Shown here: positions 1 through 8,902 of the stretch, piece by piece
Layout: every line of letters starts with the position of its first letter
Position numbering within the stretch: position 1 is the stretch's first letter
Assembly (NCBI GenBank): GCA_016928495.1
Contig: JAFGKQ010000164.1
Span: 1-9,211, forward strand
Source: Candidatus Fermentibacterales bacterium
GTDB lineage: Bacteria > Fermentibacterota > Fermentibacteria > Fermentibacterales > JAFGKQ01
Length of the DNA: 9,211 bases
Reading direction: 5' to 3'
Made by a program: the position numbers and the translations under genes
The notes under the pieces: model-generated
The model's input: the letters and a program-made list of their open reading frames with translations, nothing else
Told to the model about the DNA's origin: nothing
Database searches by the model: none

Positions 1-487
1 CCACCTTGATCTTCTTGCCCTTGTCGTCGGTCTCGGTACGGAAGGCGAGCACCGTCATCATCGCCTGGAGCTCGTCCATGACGACCAGCATGGGCTTGAG
101 CTGCCCGGTGGCCCGGTACTCGTCGATGGAGGGGTCCCCGAGGGACTCGATAAGCTCCATCCGGCGACGATACTCCGGGAACAGGTAGCCGAGACACATG
201 TCCGTGAACTGCTCGTAGACGTCGCTGAGGGTCCAGTCGCACAGCCACGGCTCGTGGGCCAACTGAGAAGCGAATTCCCTGTATGCAAGTCGCTTCGGAT
301 CGAAGATCACAGCATCCCAGCCCTTCGCCAGGGACTGCCGCAGGAGGCTCTTGGCCAAGTAGGACTTGCCACTGCCAACGGGTGCTATGCAGCAAAGACC
401 GGGGTCCTTGGCGACGTCCCACCACATGTTCAAGCCCCTCTCGGACGAGGTGCCCAAGTACAGCCGGGTATCGAGAGGCCCGCCCAT
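1..487 (-). CDS. FtsK/SpoIIIE/TraB-like DNA translocase motor, C-terminal part cut by window edge
   Basis: The visible 162 residues are the start of a P-loop ATPase motor. A Walker A motif, APVGSGKS, lies at residues 35-42, and a Walker B-type strand with acidic pair, LVVMDE, at about 134-139. Between them sits IFDPK (61-65), as in FtsK/HerA motors, where the strand after the P-loop ends in D-P-K. FtsK/TraB/TcpA proteins are hexameric ATPases that pump double-stranded DNA through a membrane pore in division, conjugation or sporulation. There are only about 34 residues before Walker A, so this polypeptide has no membrane or beta domain of its own; the preceding gene supplies a plausible one. 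The start is ATG at 487, sharing one base with the upstream TGA (TGATG), which implies translational coupling. The C-terminal half, including any DNA-orienting gamma domain, is outside the window. A conjugative coupling ATPase is the main alternative. Confidence 0.85.
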   Translation of the reverse strand, partial: MGGPLDTRLYLGTSSERGLNMWWDVAKDPGLCCIAPVGSGKSYLAKSLLRQSLAKGWDAVIFDPKRLAYREFASQLAHEPWLCDWTLSDVYEQFTDMCLGYLFPEYRRRMELIESLGDPSIDEYRATGQLKPMLVVMDELQAMMTVLAFRTETDDKGKKIKV

Positions 488-1206
488 CACTTCCCCCCGT
501 AGCGAGCGTAGAGATCGCCCTCGGGGAACTGGGCGATACGGACATCCACGTGACGGGTCTCTCCCCTCGAGAAGTCCACGGAGGACGCAAAGCCATTGAG
601 TCCCAACTTGGACTGCAGGACGGCGAGCTTGCCGGCGAGCTTCTCAGAGTCCATCCCCGGCTGCGTGGTGTCGAACCGCAGACGGATCTCCTGGCCGAGC
701 GTCGGACGAATACCCGAGGGCGGCAGGGGCTGTCCCTCGGACTCGAGGATCCGGCGGACCGTATCCAGGTCGACCACGAAGGCCACCGACGGATAGACAC
801 GGCGGAACCGCACCAGGGGCTTGCCGTCGGTCCCGGTGGTCGTCTCCTTCTGCTCCACGACCCACTTCAAGTAGTCACAGGCCTCTTCTAGACACGCGTA
901 AGCTCCGGCATGCTCGGGGCTGGCAAGCAGCAGCCGCGTGACCGCCACCCGCTGACGGGTCTCCGGACGGGCCATCACCTGGCGATAGCCCCACACGGCC
1001 AGGGCGACGATACCGACGACAGCGAGCACGTCGAGGCCCTTGGCCCAGAGGGGCTGGTCGGTGAGCAGGAGCCAGCTCGGGATGAGGGCGACCAGGAAGG
1101 CCACGCCGGCAATCACACGGCCCGGCGTATAGGCCTGAGCCTTCACCCTGGCAGACCAGGTGCTCTCCGGATCCCACGGTATGACGATCTCCTCGATGCC
1201 GGCCAT
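487..1206 (-). CDS. Two-TM membrane protein, likely membrane/beta-domain half of a split FtsK/TraB-type translocase
   Basis: A 239-residue protein with two hydrophobic helices at about residues 30-49 and 57-77, joined by a short loop, then a soluble C-terminal region. Residues 168-224 (beginning RPTLGQEIRLRF, ending HVDVRI) read as strand, helix, strand, with the helix EKLAGKLAVLQSKLGL. This resembles the small alpha/beta domain that precedes the motor in FtsK-type proteins, and the next gene begins just where the motor would start. I infer that the pair forms one translocase encoded by two genes; no signature motif proves this. The ATG at 1206 is chosen because a GGGAGGGGG ribosome binding site lies just upstream, between the previous TAG stop and the ATG. 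Reading upstream of this start would run through the preceding gene. An unrelated membrane protein of a conjugation module is the alternative. Confidence 0.75.
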   Translation of the reverse strand: MAGIEEIVIPWDPESTWSARVKAQAYTPGRVIAGVAFLVALIPSWLLLTDQPLWAKGLDVLAVVGIVALAVWGYRQVMARPETRQRVAVTRLLLASPEHAGAYACLEEACDYLKWVVEQKETTTGTDGKPLVRFRRVYPSVAFVVDLDTVRRILESEGQPLPPSGIRPTLGQEIRLRFDTTQPGMDSEKLAGKLAVLQSKLGLNGFASSVDFSRGETRHVDVRIAQFPEGDLYARYGGK

Positions 1207-1220
1207 GACAGCCCCCTCCC

Positions 1221-1451
1221 CTAGACGCTCCGCATGTACGCCTCGAAAGCCTCCCGCACGGCAGCCTGCCGCTCGGCCTCCACCCGCTTGTCCCAGCTGG
1301 CATTGAAGCCGCGGGCCAGCTCCTCGGCCTCCTCCTTGTTCCGGCACTCCCGGACCTGGCACTTCCGCTCGGCATCCCACAGCGAGTACTGGGTGTTGAT
1401 GAAGCCCAGCGAACCGGCGGTGGCTATCACCTCGAAACGAGCCTCTCCCAC
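1221..1451 (-). CDS. Small EEA-type protein, function unknown
   Basis: A 76-residue protein. The N-terminal half is beta-like (RFEVIATAGSLG, then FINTQYSLWDAE). It is followed by KEEAEELARGFN and a charged, probably helical tail rich in E, R and A (residues 39-72). The pattern of a short beta hairpin followed by an EEAxxxA helix is common in small phage and plasmid proteins, including several others in this window, but I do not recognise a named family. The start is GTG at 1451, supported by GGAGGGGG six to ten bases upstream. It overlaps the previous gene by 25 bases, the largest overlap here. An alternative GTG at 1430 would give a GTGA overlap, but it would remove the first beta strand and has a weaker ribosome site. 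The next gene starts 14 bases after its TAG. Confidence 0.7.
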   Translation of the reverse strand: MGEARFEVIATAGSLGFINTQYSLWDAERKCQVRECRNKEEAEELARGFNASWDKRVEAERQAAVREAFEAYMRSV

Positions 1452-1762
1452 GGTCCCCCTCCTTCGATCATGCGTGCCCAACTGGACAGGTCGTTCTCCC
1501 GCAGGGCGGGATTCCCCTTGGTATGCGACAGCAGCACCAGGCCATGGGACCAGAGGGCGGCCAGCTCGAACTGCTGCTGGCGGGTGAGGTCCCGGCCCGC
1601 CCAGAGCAGATGGCAATGGAGCCCGTCCTCCAGGCTCGCATGCAGCCCCGCCTCATCCGGCTGCTCCCCCAGCAGGTTCCGGAAAGCCACCACGAAGCCG
1701 AGCAGATCCCGCTCAGCGGAATGGCGATCCCTCGGGGACTCGAAGACGAGGGTTCCGACCAT
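1427..1762 (-). CDS. Degenerate HUH-nuclease-like protein (HxH kept, catalytic Tyr position is Trp)
   Basis: A 111-residue protein that aligns by eye with the 98-residue HUH protein at 2351-2647. It has LHCHLLW at residues 48-54 (histidines 49 and 51), then LTRQQQFELAALWSHG, where W71 and G74 fall at exactly the same residue numbers as in the other protein. Where the other has VAAYLMK, this one has LSSWARM, so the nucleophilic Tyr is replaced by W95 and the motif Lys by Met. Motif 1 is also weak: TLVFES rather than FITLTT. I infer a paralogue that keeps the fold and perhaps metal binding but cannot cleave DNA through tyrosine. It could be a regulator, a dimer partner or a decaying copy. The start is ATG at 1762, in a TGATG junction with the upstream gene. 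Confidence 0.7.
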   Translation of the reverse strand: MVGTLVFESPRDRHSAERDLLGFVVAFRNLLGEQPDEAGLHASLEDGLHCHLLWAGRDLTRQQQFELAALWSHGLVLLSHTKGNPALRENDLSSWARMIEGGGPWERLVSR

Positions 1763-2127
1763 CACAGGATTCCATTCTCGAACTCGCCCAGTTCCGGCAC
1801 GCCACGAAAGGCCGCAGCCAGATCCCCGTCGATACCGACCACGGGCGAGGTGGTCCGCGTGGTCACCGGACCGTCTCCCAGGGGCTCCAGCACGAGCACC
1901 AGCGGCAGGCCGAACGCCGGCCGGGAGGCCGCCGGCAGGAGCAACCACTCGCCATCACGCCGCAGGTCGTGGGTGAACTCGACACGCCGCACGTAGCCGG
2001 GACAGAACTCGTAGACGGATCCCGTGGACGTCTCCACCGCAGCCAGCGGTACCTGCTCGGCGGCATCGAACTTCCGACGGGTGTCCTCGAGGACCTTCCG
2101 CAGGGCCTCCGCACGATCAGCGTTCAC
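1762..2127 (-). CDS. TGSVYEF-family small protein (copy A), function unknown
   Basis: A 121-residue protein with the core TGSVYEFCPGYVRRV at residues 35-49, followed by LRRDGEW (55-61) and VLEPLGDGPVTTRTTSPVV (79-97). The gene at 8606-8902 encodes the same blocks in the same order, so the two are clear paralogues. The pattern of a T/G-S-x-Y strand, an R-R-x turn and an L-R-x-D-G-x-W strand suggests a compact beta-rich fold of a kind met in phage and actinobacterial small proteins; no function is known to me. The start is GTG at 2127, backed by GAGGGGGATACC directly upstream. This gene follows a leader ORF and a promoter, and its ribosome site could be masked by RNA pairing (see the inverted repeat at 2132-2197). 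Copy A has an extra helical N-terminus and a longer C-terminus than copy B. Confidence 0.8.
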   Translation of the reverse strand: MNADRAEALRKVLEDTRRKFDAAEQVPLAAVETSTGSVYEFCPGYVRRVEFTHDLRRDGEWLLLPAASRPAFGLPLVLVLEPLGDGPVTTRTTSPVVGIDGDLAAAFRGVPELGEFENGIL

Positions 2128-2131
2128 GGTA

Positions 2132-2197
2132 TCCCCCTCAGCTCGGCTACGGATGCCCCAGGGGGACCGGCCAGGAAGGCCGCCAGGCAGAGGGGGA
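2132..2197 (-). promoter_or_regulatory. Inverted repeat that could sequester the ribosome site of the 2127 gene
   Basis: On the transcript, TCCCCCTC (2190-2197) is a perfect 8-nt complement of GAGGGGGA (2132-2139), which is the ribosome binding region for the GTG at 2127. Between the arms is a 5-bp hairpin, CGGCC-TTCCT-GGCCG (2168-2182), and a second TCCCCC tract (2161-2166) that could compete for the same site. The upstream arm lies inside the 38-codon leader ORF, so a translating ribosome would break the pairing. Pairing is seen in the sequence; a regulatory role is inferred, and G/C tracts in GC-rich DNA can pair by chance. Confidence 0.35.
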
Positions 2198-2263
2198 GGG
2201 AATGCCCGGCAGAGAAGCCTGGGCACAGGCGAGCACGACAAAAGAGGAAGGCCGTGCCGCCAT
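2147..2263 (-). CDS. 38-aa leader ORF upstream of the TGSVYEF/translocase operon
   Basis: ATG at 2263 is preceded by GGGGAGGTGAGAAGTCCT, whose GGAGGTGA is a full match to the usual anti-Shine-Dalgarno sequence, about 40 bases downstream of the predicted transcription start. The ORF encodes 38 residues, beginning MAARPSSFVVLACAQ and rich in Pro, Ser and Trp near its end, and stops with TAG 19 bases before the GTG of the next gene. Third-position GC is lower than in neighbouring genes, so this need not be a conserved protein. I read it as a short leader whose translation may control the downstream gene by coupling. Another frame is also open across this stretch, ending in a GTGA overlap with the next gene, but it has no start codon after the promoter. 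It may simply be untranslated leader RNA. Confidence 0.45.
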   Translation of the reverse strand: MAARPSSFVVLACAQASLPGIPSPSAWRPSWPVPLGHP

Positions 2264-2308
2264 AGGACTTCTCACCTCCCCTAGACCGGTCCCGATGAAG
2301 CGACCGAA

Positions 2309-2336
2309 AAGATAGCCGGGGAGAGGCGATTGTCAA
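2309..2336 (-). promoter_or_regulatory. Sigma-70/sigma-A type promoter for the 2263-to-1 operon
   Basis: The minus strand reads TTGACA (2331-2336), a 16-base spacer, then TATCTT (2309-2314). The -35 box is the perfect consensus and the -10 box matches four of six positions. The stretch sits in one of only two gaps of any size in the window, directly after the HUH gene stop. It would start an mRNA near 2302, about 40 bases before the leader ATG. Confidence 0.7.
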
Positions 2337-2350
2337 GCATATTCCGGAGA

Positions 2351-2647
2351 TCAGCGGAGATTCGGATACTTCATCAGGTAGGCCGCCACATGACACTCAT
2401 CGCGAGCCCGAGCGATGTTGAGAAAGCCCCACGGCCACAGGTTCTGGAGCTCCTTCCGGGACAGGAACACCCAGTCCCGATACACCAGGTGAACGTGCAT
2501 CCGATCCGCCGGGCCCAGCTCGTAGAGCGGCTCCACAAGCTGCTTCCCATGCTGACGGAGGGCCTCGCAGAAGACGCCGACGGCCTCCTCGAGGACAAAA
2601 AGCTCAGTCGGCTCCCTCGTGGTCAGCGTGATGAAGACGGTACTCAT
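2351..2647 (-). CDS. Minimal HUH endonuclease (rolling-circle Rep-like)
   Basis: A 98-residue protein with the three classic rolling-circle Rep motifs in order. Motif 1 is FITLTT (residues 5-10), motif 2 is HVHLVY (51-56, the HUH metal site), and motif 3 is VAAYLMKY (87-94), with Y90 as likely nucleophile and K93 as the conserved lysine. Between motifs 2 and 3 is LQNLWPWGFLNI, matching the L-x-x-x-W-x-x-G-x-x-x-(I/V) segment of small Rep proteins. HUH enzymes nick single-stranded DNA and form a 5'-phosphotyrosine link to start rolling-circle replication, conjugation or transposition. The protein stops four residues after motif 3, so it has neither a helicase nor an extra DNA-binding domain. 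It starts at ATG 2647 in an ATGA overlap with the previous gene and is the last gene of the long operon. A relative lacking Tyr lies at 1427-1762. Whether it is active is not shown. Confidence 0.75.
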   Translation of the reverse strand: MSTVFITLTTREPTELFVLEEAVGVFCEALRQHGKQLVEPLYELGPADRMHVHLVYRDWVFLSRKELQNLWPWGFLNIARARDECHVAAYLMKYPNLR

Positions 2648-2826: not shown

Positions 2827-3143
2827 CACAGCCCCCGAAGGTCACGGAACACCGTGAGGCCGTCTTCCGGGACAACCCGGAGGGGACACGGCTCGTAGCC
2901 GGCCTGACCGAGGGAGATGGCATCCAGCTCCACGGGCTCCCAGTCGTTCCGACGGACACCCCCGCGTACTGCCATACGGGCAGCCCAGCAGGGCCCACAG
3001 TCCTCTACGCAGCCCGCCTTGCGAAGCACGATACGGTAGCCATGCCCCTCCTCCTCGAACACCGGACAGCCGAGGCGATCGAGCTCGTCCACGGCCACCT
3101 GGAGCAGCAGGGTGGCCGCACAATCGCGGGATATTGACCTCAT
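2826..3143 (-). CDS. Small cysteine-cluster protein, function unknown
   Basis: A 105-residue protein. A predicted helix (residues 10-24, TLLLQVAVDELDRLG) is followed by YRIVLRKAG and a cysteine cluster, C45-x3-C49-x2-C52 (GCVEDCGPCWAARM). The cluster could bind a metal such as zinc or be a CxxC redox site. The remainder includes DWEPVELDAISLGQAGYEPCPLRVV. I recognise no family. The ATG at 3143 overlaps the TGA of the next upstream gene (ATGA) and has GGAGGTGCCGGC upstream. The gene ends with an RGL* sequence in which GGGGGCTG doubles as the ribosome site of the following gene, the same junction seen at 5877. Confidence 0.7.
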   Translation of the reverse strand: MRSISRDCAATLLLQVAVDELDRLGCPVFEEEGHGYRIVLRKAGCVEDCGPCWAARMAVRGGVRRNDWEPVELDAISLGQAGYEPCPLRVVPEDGLTVFRDLRGL

Positions 3144-3325
3144 GCCGGCACCTCCTCGACGTTGAAATGAACCTCCCCGTCCTGGTTCCGGACTCCGACC
3201 CAGAACCGCACGCCGGCAGCGTCCATGTCCGCCTGAACCAGCTCCTCGGCCTCCTGCTCGTCCTCGGCCTCGACCTCGACCGAGCCGTACGTCTCCTCGC
3301 AGATTTTCACTCGGTACTTGGGCAT
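3140..3325 (-). CDS. DpnD/PcfM-like small acidic protein
   Basis: A 61-residue, strongly acidic protein and the best match in the window to the DpnD/PcfM-like pattern: KYRVKICEETYGSVEVEAED, then EQEAEELVQADMDAAG. This gives two beta strands ending in VEAE followed by an EEA helix. The family is widespread on plasmids and phages; no biochemical role is established. It is the first of three such genes in direct succession (3140-3722), which suggests tandem duplication followed by divergence. The start is ATG at 3325, in a TGATG overlap with the previous stop, and the stop overlaps the next ATG (ATGA). Confidence 0.75.
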   Translation of the reverse strand: MPKYRVKICEETYGSVEVEAEDEQEAEELVQADMDAAGVRFWVGVRNQDGEVHFNVEEVPA

Positions 3326-3516
3326 CAGGACTCCTCCTCCTCGACACTGAGAATCTCGTAGTCACCGGTCATGTAGAACTTCTCGCCCTCGAAGTCGTCC
3401 TCGGACCACTGCCGGGCGAAGGCCTGCTCGTAGGCCTGCTCCCGGTTCTCGGCCTCGATCTCGACGGTCGTATCGAGCCTCGCAAACCCCCGCACCCACA
3501 CCTCGTAGGTCACCAT
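3325..3516 (-). CDS. DpnD/PcfM-like small acidic protein
   Basis: A 63-residue protein: TYEVWVRGFARLDTTVEIEA, then ENREQAYEQAFARQWSEDDF and a second beta-like part, FYMTGDYEILSVEEEES. The Y-x-V strand, the V-E-I-E-A strand end and the E-Q-A helix align with the neighbours on both sides. The acidic C-terminus EEEES is encoded by GAGGAGGAG, the ribosome binding site of the next gene, which starts in a TGATG overlap. The start is ATG at 3516. Function unknown. Confidence 0.75.
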   Translation of the reverse strand: MVTYEVWVRGFARLDTTVEIEAENREQAYEQAFARQWSEDDFEGEKFYMTGDYEILSVEEEES

Positions 3517-5192: not shown

Positions 5193-5387
5193 CTACTCCT
5201 CCCCCTCGACCAGCACCGGCTCCTCAGGGAACTGGAAGACCATGTCGACCTTGAGCATCCGTTCGGTCGCCCGGTCGTAGCGGCCCGCCTCGATGAGCCC
5301 GGCGGTCTGGCGGGCATCCTCGGCTTCGACAATGGCCACCTTGTGCCGCTGGATCGTCTCCCACCAGCGGACCTCGTAGCGGGGCAT
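5193..5387 (-). CDS. DpnD/PcfM-like small protein
   Basis: A 64-residue protein: PRYEVRWWETIQRHKVAIVEAED, then ARQTAGLIEAGRYDRATERM and a closing strand region (VDMVFQFPEEPVLVEGEE). The Y-x-V strand and the IVEAED strand end match the trio at 3140-3722, although the helix lacks the EEA pair. The start is ATG at 5387, five bases after the previous TGA, with GGAG in the end of the upstream gene. It stops in TAG before a GTG start (TAGCC junction). Function unknown. Confidence 0.65.
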   Translation of the reverse strand: MPRYEVRWWETIQRHKVAIVEAEDARQTAGLIEAGRYDRATERMLKVDMVFQFPEEPVLVEGEE

Positions 5388-5662: not shown

Positions 5663-5877
5663 CACGACCCCTCCTTCCGGACGATGTAGAGGCTGCCCGC
5701 ACGCATCTCCAAGACCAGGGACACGCCGGGGTCCATCAGGTGGGCAACTGCTTCGATGGCCGCTTCAACCTGCCCGTAGGCGGCCATGGCCTCCATGGGG
5801 TTGTCAGCGACAAGCTCTTCCGAGAGACCGCTCCGGTAGAAGCTCCACACGTCAGCACGCACGCTCTGCTTGGCCAT
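5662..5877 (-). CDS. 71-aa protein, function unknown
   Basis: The protein begins MAKQSVRADVWSFYRSGLSE, then a long helix (PMEAMAAYGQVEAAIEAVAHLM), and closes with two short strands (VSLVLEMRAGSLYIVRK). No motif is recognised. ATG at 5877 shares a base with the upstream TGA. The preceding GGGGGCTGTGATGG is identical to the junction at 2826, and the ribosome site encodes the last residues of the upstream protein. Confidence 0.65.
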   Translation of the reverse strand: MAKQSVRADVWSFYRSGLSEELVADNPMEAMAAYGQVEAAIEAVAHLMDPGVSLVLEMRAGSLYIVRKEGS

Positions 5878-6176
5878 CACAGCCCCCTTTCCCGCCAGTA
5901 GAGAGCCAGACCGTCCCAGTCGATGTGGTCGGTGCCCTCACGCAGGAGGGTCGTGCGGAGAGGACCGTCGTCGGGCTCACAAGACGCGAGCTCCTCGATA
6001 CGCTCCCGCACGGCCTCGGCACCCTCTGCCCAGGGACGCCTGAACGAACCCATCCAGGCGTCCGACGGACCCTTGACGCCCGCCAGGAGCTCCCGCAGCT
6101 CCTCCTCAGCGTCACCCCAGATGATGTTCGTGAGGTTCCAGGTGCCCCAGTTCGTGAATCCGTCGTAGTCGGCCAT
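5877..6176 (-). CDS. NWGT/NYETW-type phage-plasmid small protein (copy A)
   Basis: A 99-residue protein with FTNWGTWNLTNIIW at residues 7-20, EEELRELLAG at 24-33, ERIEEL in the centre and HIDWDGLA at 84-91. The arrangement, an N-terminal N-(W/Y)-x-T-W-N signature and a C-terminal (V/I)-(D/N)-W-x-x-(I/L)-A, is that of a family common on phages and plasmids whose best-known members read NYETW-N. I believe this is DUF7249, though the name is from memory. Its function is unknown. A second copy lies at 7338-7613. The start is ATG at 6176 with AGGAGGCGACG upstream, nine bases after the previous TAG. Confidence 0.75.
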   Translation of the reverse strand: MADYDGFTNWGTWNLTNIIWGDAEEELRELLAGVKGPSDAWMGSFRRPWAEGAEAVRERIEELASCEPDDGPLRTTLLREGTDHIDWDGLALYWRERGL

Positions 6177-7337: not shown

Positions 7338-7613
7338 CTACTCCTCCCAGCCCATGACCTCGTTGGCGAGGGCAACCCAGTCGATGTTCATGCGACCGTC
7401 TTCCAGGTAGGCCTCGGTGAAGGGACGCTCGCGAAGCTCGGGATCCTTCTCGTCCTCGATCCGCTCGTCCACCCAGTCCCGAAGAACCCGATCGGCATCG
7501 ACACGCGTGGTACAGCCGGCGAGGAGGTCCCGTACCTCGTCCTCGTAGAACTCGTCAGCGAGCAGGTCGGAGATCTGCTTGGTGCCCCAGTTCGCGTAGC
7601 CCATGTAGCCCAA
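7338..7613 (-). CDS. NWGT/NYETW-type phage-plasmid small protein (copy B)
   Basis: A 91-residue protein paralogous to 5877-6176: YANWGTKQISDLLADE (residues 6-21), EVRDLLAG (26-33), a middle acidic helix (DWVDERIEDEKDPELR) and MNIDWVALANE (75-85). It keeps NWGT but lacks the W-N that follows in copy A. The start is taken as TTG at 7613 because it stands in the TAGCC-start slot found elsewhere (AGGTGAGTAGCC then TTG). The in-frame ATG at 7604 would shorten the protein by three residues. The C-terminal WEE is encoded by the next ribosome site. Confidence 0.75.
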   Translation of the reverse strand: MGYMGYANWGTKQISDLLADEFYEDEVRDLLAGCTTRVDADRVLRDWVDERIEDEKDPELRERPFTEAYLEDGRMNIDWVALANEVMGWEE

Positions 7614-7834: not shown

Positions 7835-7873
7835 GAACACCACTTCCTCCCCGCCGTCCGATAAGGCTGCCTA

Positions 7874-7901
7874 GGTATAGCCGCGGAGCCGAATTCCGCA
7901 A
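7874..7901 (-). promoter_or_regulatory. Probable promoter of the 20-gene middle operon
   Basis: The minus strand reads TTGCGG (7896-7901), a 16-base spacer, then TATACC (7874-7879). Both boxes keep the most conserved bases (TTG and TATA). The site lies in a non-coding gap and would start RNA near 7867, about 20-30 bases before the first start codon, leaving room for the GGGGAGG ribosome site. It is weaker than the promoter at 2309-2336. Confidence 0.5.
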
Positions 7902-7951
7902 GGATCGACACGGAGATTTCTCGAAGAACTTCCTCCGGCGGTCGCCGCATT

Positions 7952-7985
7952 CCCGGCCCCTACTCGAGTAGTCGAGGGAACCGGG
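7952..7985 (-). other. GC-rich hairpin in the gap between operons
   Basis: On the minus strand CCCGG, CCC and CTAC pair with GTAG, GGG and CCGGG around a TCGA loop, with small bulges on one side. The core CTACTCGAGTAG (7960-7971) is a perfect 12-base palindrome. It sits about 40 bases after the stop at 8024 and before the promoter at 7874-7901. It could end the upstream transcript (there is no T-run, so not a canonical intrinsic terminator) or be a protein-binding site for an element regulator. Confidence 0.4.
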
Positions 7986-8023
7986 CCGTCTTCAAGGAAA
8001 TCAGCGGAAGAATCTCGGGGCGT

Positions 8024-8605: not shown

Positions 8606-8902
8606 CTACCCCTCCTTCGGGACCCACTCGATGGACACGACGGCGGTGGTGCGGCGTTCGGTGTGGGGGCCCTCGCCGAGGGGCTCCAGGAAGAGCACCA
8701 TCGGGCGGCCCTTGAAAGGCACGGTGCCATCGGAGACGGAGAGCCAGTCCCCGTCCCGGCGGAGAGGCCCCTCGGGGTTCACCCGACGGACGCGATCGGG
8801 CAGGAACTCGTAGACGGAGCCCGTCTCGGTCTCGACCCGCATGAGGTCGCCGTCCGCGGAAGCGGCCGCGAGGGCGGTCTGGAACTGGTCCCAGGTGGAC
8901 AT
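8606..8902 (-). CDS. TGSVYEF-family small protein (copy B), function unknown
   Basis: A 98-residue protein with TGSVYEFLPDRVRRV at residues 27-41, LRRDGDWLSV at 47-56, FKGRPMVLFLEPLGEGP at 63-79 and RRTTAVVSIEW at 83-93. Every block recurs in the gene at 1762-2127, giving the clearest paralogous pair in the window. The fold is probably all-beta after an N-terminal helix (WDQFQTALAAA). The start is ATG at 8902 in a TGATG junction. The two copies lie near opposite ends of the window, in different operons. Confidence 0.8.
   Translation of the reverse strand: MSTWDQFQTALAAASADGDLMRVETETGSVYEFLPDRVRRVNPEGPLRRDGDWLSVSDGTVPFKGRPMVLFLEPLGEGPHTERRTTAVVSIEWVPKEG

Follow-up and report, generated by a model that had tools for sequence, protein, structure and literature searches.

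A tyrosine-less, probably HUH-fold protein encoded near an HUH replication initiator on a contig of small genes

Gene organization of the contig

The window, i.e. the whole stretch of DNA that was analysed (9,211 nt), is an entire contig of a 2.3-Mb genome bin comprising 337 contigs at 81% completeness. It harbors about thirty small genes, all of which are located on the minus strand and many of which display overlapping stop and start codons. The features considered here are the following:

2..490, minus strand: P0003, an FtsK/HerA-type ATPase, truncated where the contig ends
490..1206, minus strand: P0004, 239 aa, hydrophobic in two stretches close to the N-terminus and soluble thereafter
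1221..1451, minus strand: small gene after P0001, start codon GTG at 1451 or 1430
1427..1762, minus strand: P0001, 111 aa, probably a divergent protein of the HUH fold, with H49xH51, W71xxG74, a possible third ligand H41 and no Tyr
1762..2127, minus strand: unnamed 121-aa gene, the first of the P0001 gene run, its TGA overlapping the P0001 ATG; paralogue of 8606-8902
2128..2350, minus strand: intergenic stretch of 223 nt separating P0002 from the P0001 gene run, with a promoter-like TTGACA-16-TATCTT at 2336..2309
2351..2647, minus strand: P0002, 98-aa HUH replication initiator with TLT, E43, H51xH53, W71xxGF and Y90xxK93Y94

P0001 is thus part of a run of overlapping or closely spaced genes, in which it is preceded by a small gene and followed by another small gene and by the genes of a membrane protein and an FtsK-type ATPase. 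The upstream gene run terminates with P0002. The proposal of an earlier note on this DNA that the two genes are under different promoters is supported by this arrangement into distinct gene runs, which are separated by the 223-nt gap with the only promoter-like site of this kind in the contig (0.7 expected by chance). That P0001 precedes genes for a membrane protein and an FtsK-type ATPase had not been mentioned in that note. P0003 matches phrog_1358 (FtsK/SpoIIIE-like) with an E-value of 2.4e-4, while DUF87 stayed below the cut-off; a tblastn search against plasmids yielded FtsK/SpoIIIE-domain proteins at 27% identity, many of them residing in Enterococcus elements typed MOBT. For P0004, no significant match was obtained in Pfam and PHROG.

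As single-stranded DNA, the intergenic stretch 2128-2350 folds better than all of 200 shuffled sequences (z -2.8), and it might be speculated from its sequence that this region serves as an origin or control region. A second long gene-free stretch, at 7835-8023, precedes the gene run whose last member is P0002. By eye, this stretch contains a promoter-like TTGCGG-16-TATACC in a layout similar to that of the site at 2336..2309, and a palindrome near 7954-7985.

The tetranucleotide pattern of the contig is an outlier in its own bin, with a correlation of r 0.22 compared to 0.44-0.58 for eleven other contigs. The contig is therefore either a foreign element or wrongly binned, and its host is uncertain. 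No terminal overlap indicative of a circular contig was found. A search for overlapping contig ends within the same genome did not recover further parts of the element, and searches with P0003, P0004 and two small genes did not reveal closely related elements. Apart from P0002, no relaxase was seen on the contig, nor were an oriT or an integrase.

P0002 as an HUH replication initiator

P0002 matches the Pfam family PF23343 (REP_ORF2-G2P) above the cut-off (E 1.6e-8; 35.2 bits at a cut-off of 27.8; profile positions 2-94 of 99), and in addition phrog_3584, replication initiation protein, with an E-value of 2.5e-4. In an alignment of nine Reps, i.e. P0002 and eight Reps of microviruses, plasmids and phages, all 11 invariant columns are present in P0002, among them TLT, Glu43, His51, His53, Trp71, Gly74, Phe75, Tyr90 and Tyr94. 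HUH motif III has been described as YxxK or YxxKY (PMC6668415), and the YLMKY of P0002 fits this pattern. A model of P0002 folded alone comprises strands at residues 3-10, 36-44, 50-57 and 74-81 and helices at 16-32 and 64-70. By its sequence, P0002 is a genuine HUH replication initiator and a member of REP_ORF2-G2P, in line with the earlier description of the neighbor of P0001 as an intact HUH protein. The relatives of P0002 that were identified are one microvirus Rep in viral contigs and Reps of plasmids and phages that matched weakly, which were used as input for the Rep profile described below; none were found in genome contigs.

P0001 lacks tyrosine and retains the HxH motif

The reading frame of P0001 extends from an ATG to a TGA and encodes 111 aa. 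The GC content by codon position (0.72/0.46/0.82) is similar to that of the neighboring genes, and the stop codon of the preceding gene and the start codon of P0001 overlap in a TGATG. We therefore take P0001 to be a real, translationally coupled gene. The translation agrees with the previous description of a 111-residue protein with H49-C-H51, W71, G74, W95 and M98, and tyrosine is absent from its entire length. Since there is no tyrosine, the covalent HUH mechanism is not available to P0001 by itself.

The motif II HxH of P0001 (H49xH51) aligns with H51xH53 of P0002 and is located in a strand (49-55) which is followed by a helix (61-73). The WxxG(F) motif after motif II is represented by W71SHG74, followed by a leucine where phenylalanine is expected, and the tyrosine of motif III, YxxK(Y), is missing. 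Thus, the claim that the conserved residues share their numbers with those of P0002 holds for W71 and G74, but not for the HxH pair (49/51 compared to 51/53). The proposed positions of W95 opposite Tyr90 and of M98 opposite Lys93 are plausible, but are drawn from one global MAFFT alignment, in a part of the model with a pLDDT below 50; local alignments between P0001 and Reps end at residue 82-83. In the MAFFT alignment, His41 occupies the position of the invariant glutamate of the Reps (E43 in P0002), and it is possible that H41 serves as a third metal ligand.

In a single-sequence AlphaFold model of P0001 folded alone, strands are predicted at 2-8, 40-45, 49-55 and 76-80 and helices at 13-31 and 61-73. 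This beta-alpha-beta-beta-alpha-beta topology is the one expected of an HUH core, at a mean pLDDT of 60.5 (76.6 for P0002, modeled separately in the same way) and with generic ferredoxin-like folds as the only structure matches. The order of strands and helices is identical in the two models; hence, unrelated folds, which the earlier note had named as grounds for abandoning the relationship, were not obtained. Structure searches with both proteins returned common ferredoxin-like folds only, which is consistent with an HUH core but no proof of it. As these searches cannot tell HUH apart from other folds, and P0002 as a true HUH protein fared no better, the missing HUH entries near the top of the list for P0001 carry little weight.

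Relationship of P0001 to HUH Reps

A single BLASTP comparison of P0001 with P0002 (E 0.002) gave 27% identity in an alignment of 79 aa, which extends co-linearly from the first strand to beyond WxxG. The Smith-Waterman score of the pair is 49. When each protein was shuffled 20,000 times, this score was attained 26 times for P0001 and 13 times for P0002, and the next-best other frame in the window scored 34. Similar results were obtained with Reps from elsewhere: the score was 51 for the Rep of the Fusobacterium plasmid p40A2 (no shuffle among 2000 as good) and 42 for a human-gut phage Rep (matched by 6 of 2000 shuffles). An hhalign comparison of the nine-Rep profile with P0001 gave a P-value of 1.9e-4 at a probability of 47%. 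On a Rep profile from which P0002 had been left out, P0001 scored 8.0 bits, higher than all shuffles, and of roughly 640 real frames taken from unrelated DNA, one presumably unrelated frame scored 8.2 bits; upon addition of P0002, P0001 rose to 11.5 bits and the tying frame fell to 5.5. The sole sequence match of P0001 in the PDB, weak at an E-value of 1.3, is the HUH nuclease domain of parvovirus NS1 (4r94), aligned on the HxH.

These data make it very likely that P0001 is homologous to HUH Reps. It probably adopts the HUH fold and represents a highly divergent protein of the REP_ORF2-G2P type. The members of this family (PF23343) are found in microviruses and in small plasmids of the rolling-circle type, such as Fusobacterium p40A2. 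P0001 shares with them HxH and WxxG, the one-domain size and the predicted succession of strands and helices; it differs in the missing tyrosine, in TLV instead of TLT, in GL instead of GF and in the apparent replacement of the conserved glutamate by histidine, and it is missed by the Pfam model. It is unlikely that P0001 is a small ferredoxin-like protein unrelated to HUH in which HxH and WxxG occur by coincidence, as might be argued from the lack of any Pfam or PHROG match even at an E-value of 1 (PF23343 included), the hhalign probability, the presumably unrelated frame which ties P0001 on the P0002-free profile, and the generic fold matches of low confidence. Against such a coincidence, the same register is found in partly independent comparisons (with P0002, with the Reps of the Fusobacterium plasmid and the human-gut phage, and with parvovirus NS1), and a neighboring gene, P0002, encodes an HUH Rep.

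Accordingly, the claim that P0001 is a relative of the neighboring HUH protein stands as that of a probable, distant relationship beyond chance, as indicated by BLASTP, shuffling and hhalign, but not as that of a close duplicate. P0001 is not a recent copy of P0002, because the scores of P0002 are 78-104 with Reps from foreign plasmids and phages and only 49 with P0001. To speak of a catalytic copy and a tyrosine-less copy was an overstatement, since P0001 scores 49 with P0002 and 51 with the foreign plasmid Rep. The sequences suggest that P0001 is either an old relative of P0002 or evolving fast.

No relatives of P0001 were found in viral contigs, 84,980 species genomes, plasmids, phages and 42 genomes of the phylum. 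Three weak matches among 117 relatives and controls (E 0.001-0.009), two of them with stops, were not taken as real. The lack of conserved homologues and the loss of catalytic residues would fit a functionless Rep remnant that is decaying or drifting freely. We consider this quite improbable, as the frame is intact, the coding pattern is normal, the stop-start overlap with the preceding gene is in place, and HxH and WxxG are retained.

Possible roles of P0001

Inactivated HUH domains are already known, and P0001 would be a further variant of these. Polyomavirus T antigen and papillomavirus E1 possess inactivated HUH domains as their origin-binding domains, and an HUH domain without tyrosine is still able to bind hairpin or single-stranded DNA (PMC6668415). 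P0001 probably has in common with these viral domains an HUH fold, and like them it lacks the catalytic tyrosine; however, none of the three motifs is left in the T antigen and E1 domains, which are joined to a helicase, whereas P0001 is a stand-alone protein which has kept HxH. In the literature, which was covered in part, no account was found of a tyrosine-less HUH paralogue beside an active Rep.

A parallel to the gene arrangement is provided by the Tn916/ICESt3 superfamily. In a Tn916-type element found by the ATPase search, two small YdcP proteins are encoded directly upstream of the FtsK gene, which is followed by MobT. OrfL and OrfM (YdcP, HelP) of ICESt3 form a complex and act as auxiliary proteins of the relaxosome (PMC12614216). 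Like P0001, OrfL and OrfM are small proteins whose genes lie shortly before that of an FtsK-type coupling ATPase, and a helper role has been proposed for them as it is here for P0001. The likeness is one of position only, since OrfL and OrfM are OB-fold proteins and P0001 is HUH-like, and the relaxase of these systems is MOBT (Rep_trans). Auxiliary relaxosome proteins of this type are defined by an OB or a ribbon-helix-helix fold and by being required for transfer, and the topology predicted for P0001 is not OB.

Because inactivated HUH domains serve as origin-binding domains, and because of the operon context, our best guess is that P0001 is a tyrosine-less, HUH-fold DNA-binding helper of P0002 or of DNA transfer which helps to couple nicked DNA to the FtsK-type ATPase, a tentative reading to which we would assign a probability of roughly 0.45. 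Having lost the tyrosine nucleophile, P0001 would no longer carry out the usual nicking and joining of DNA. Instead, it might bind the replication or transfer origin of the element, or the nickase P0002 itself, and might thereby help to couple the nicked DNA to the ATPase of the same operon. The observations underlying this helper role are the gene itself, its HUH Rep-like sequence and topology, the missing tyrosine, the intact HUH neighbor and the ATPase operon; binding of DNA, binding of metal by H49 and H51 (perhaps also H41), a partnership with P0002 and a role in transfer are what we infer from them. Several points speak against it: OrfL and OrfM, as OB-fold proteins, offer a positional parallel only; the searches for homologues gave no sign of conservation; the ATPase P0003 is weakly matched and truncated; P0002 is the only relaxase seen, with neither oriT nor integrase; and an HxH motif retained without tyrosine is odd for a pure DNA-binding role.

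Alternatively, P0001 might be a tyrosine-less regulator which competes with P0002 for the origin or forms inactive heterodimers with it and in this way sets the copy number. HUH Reps bind DNA and are often regulated, both genes reside on one element and are alike in size and predicted fold of their products, and P0001 belongs to its own gene run behind a promoter-like site. As P0001 is placed with the ATPase operon rather than beside P0002, and as the large divergence between the two proteins leaves no obvious common DNA site or surface for dimerization, we regard such a regulatory role as rather unlikely.

The retained HxH, and H41 opposite the otherwise invariant Glu43, also raise the question of whether P0001 is still an enzyme, either a metal-dependent hydrolytic HUH nuclease that dispenses with the covalent tyrosine step, or a half-site completed by the tyrosine of P0002. 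There is a precedent for the latter in the transposase TnpA of IS608, whose active site is assembled in trans from the tyrosine of one monomer and the HUH motif of the other (PMC5934647). This Y1 HUH transposase is, like P0001, a small protein, and it has the HUH fold that P0001 probably shares, but it forms a homodimer and possesses its own tyrosine. No sign of dimer formation or metal binding was seen here, and the lysine is also lost if the alignment holds; we therefore think it improbable that P0001 is an enzyme at all. A heterodimeric HUH nickase in particular, in which P0001 would contribute the metal-bound HUH site (possibly His-His-His) and P0002 the tyrosine in trans, appears very unlikely. 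If it did exist, the element would control nicking by producing the two halves from separate operons.

If P0001 does work as a stand-alone, tyrosine-less HUH protein beside an active one, it would represent a prokaryotic case of the principle behind the polyoma- and papillomavirus origin-binding domains, and would illustrate how a mobile element can convert a nicking enzyme into a protein with a helper or control function. As single-domain proteins of this size, P0001 and P0002 should be biochemically easy to test.

Other gene families of the contig

The contig contains further related genes, all on the minus strand. The products of 1762-2127 and 8606-8902 are clear paralogues (z 30) with the common core ETxTGSVYEFxPxxVRRV...LRRDGxWL and without a Pfam match. 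A second pair of paralogues (z 14.5), which could not be assigned to a family, is encoded at 5877-6176 and 7338-7613 and is characterized by an FxNWGT motif close to the start and an IDWxxLA motif close to the end. The small proteins encoded at 3140-3325, 3325-3516 and 5193-5387 are similar to one another, and one of them displays a weak DpnD/PcfM-like match to PF14207 (E 8.8e-5), just below the cut-off.
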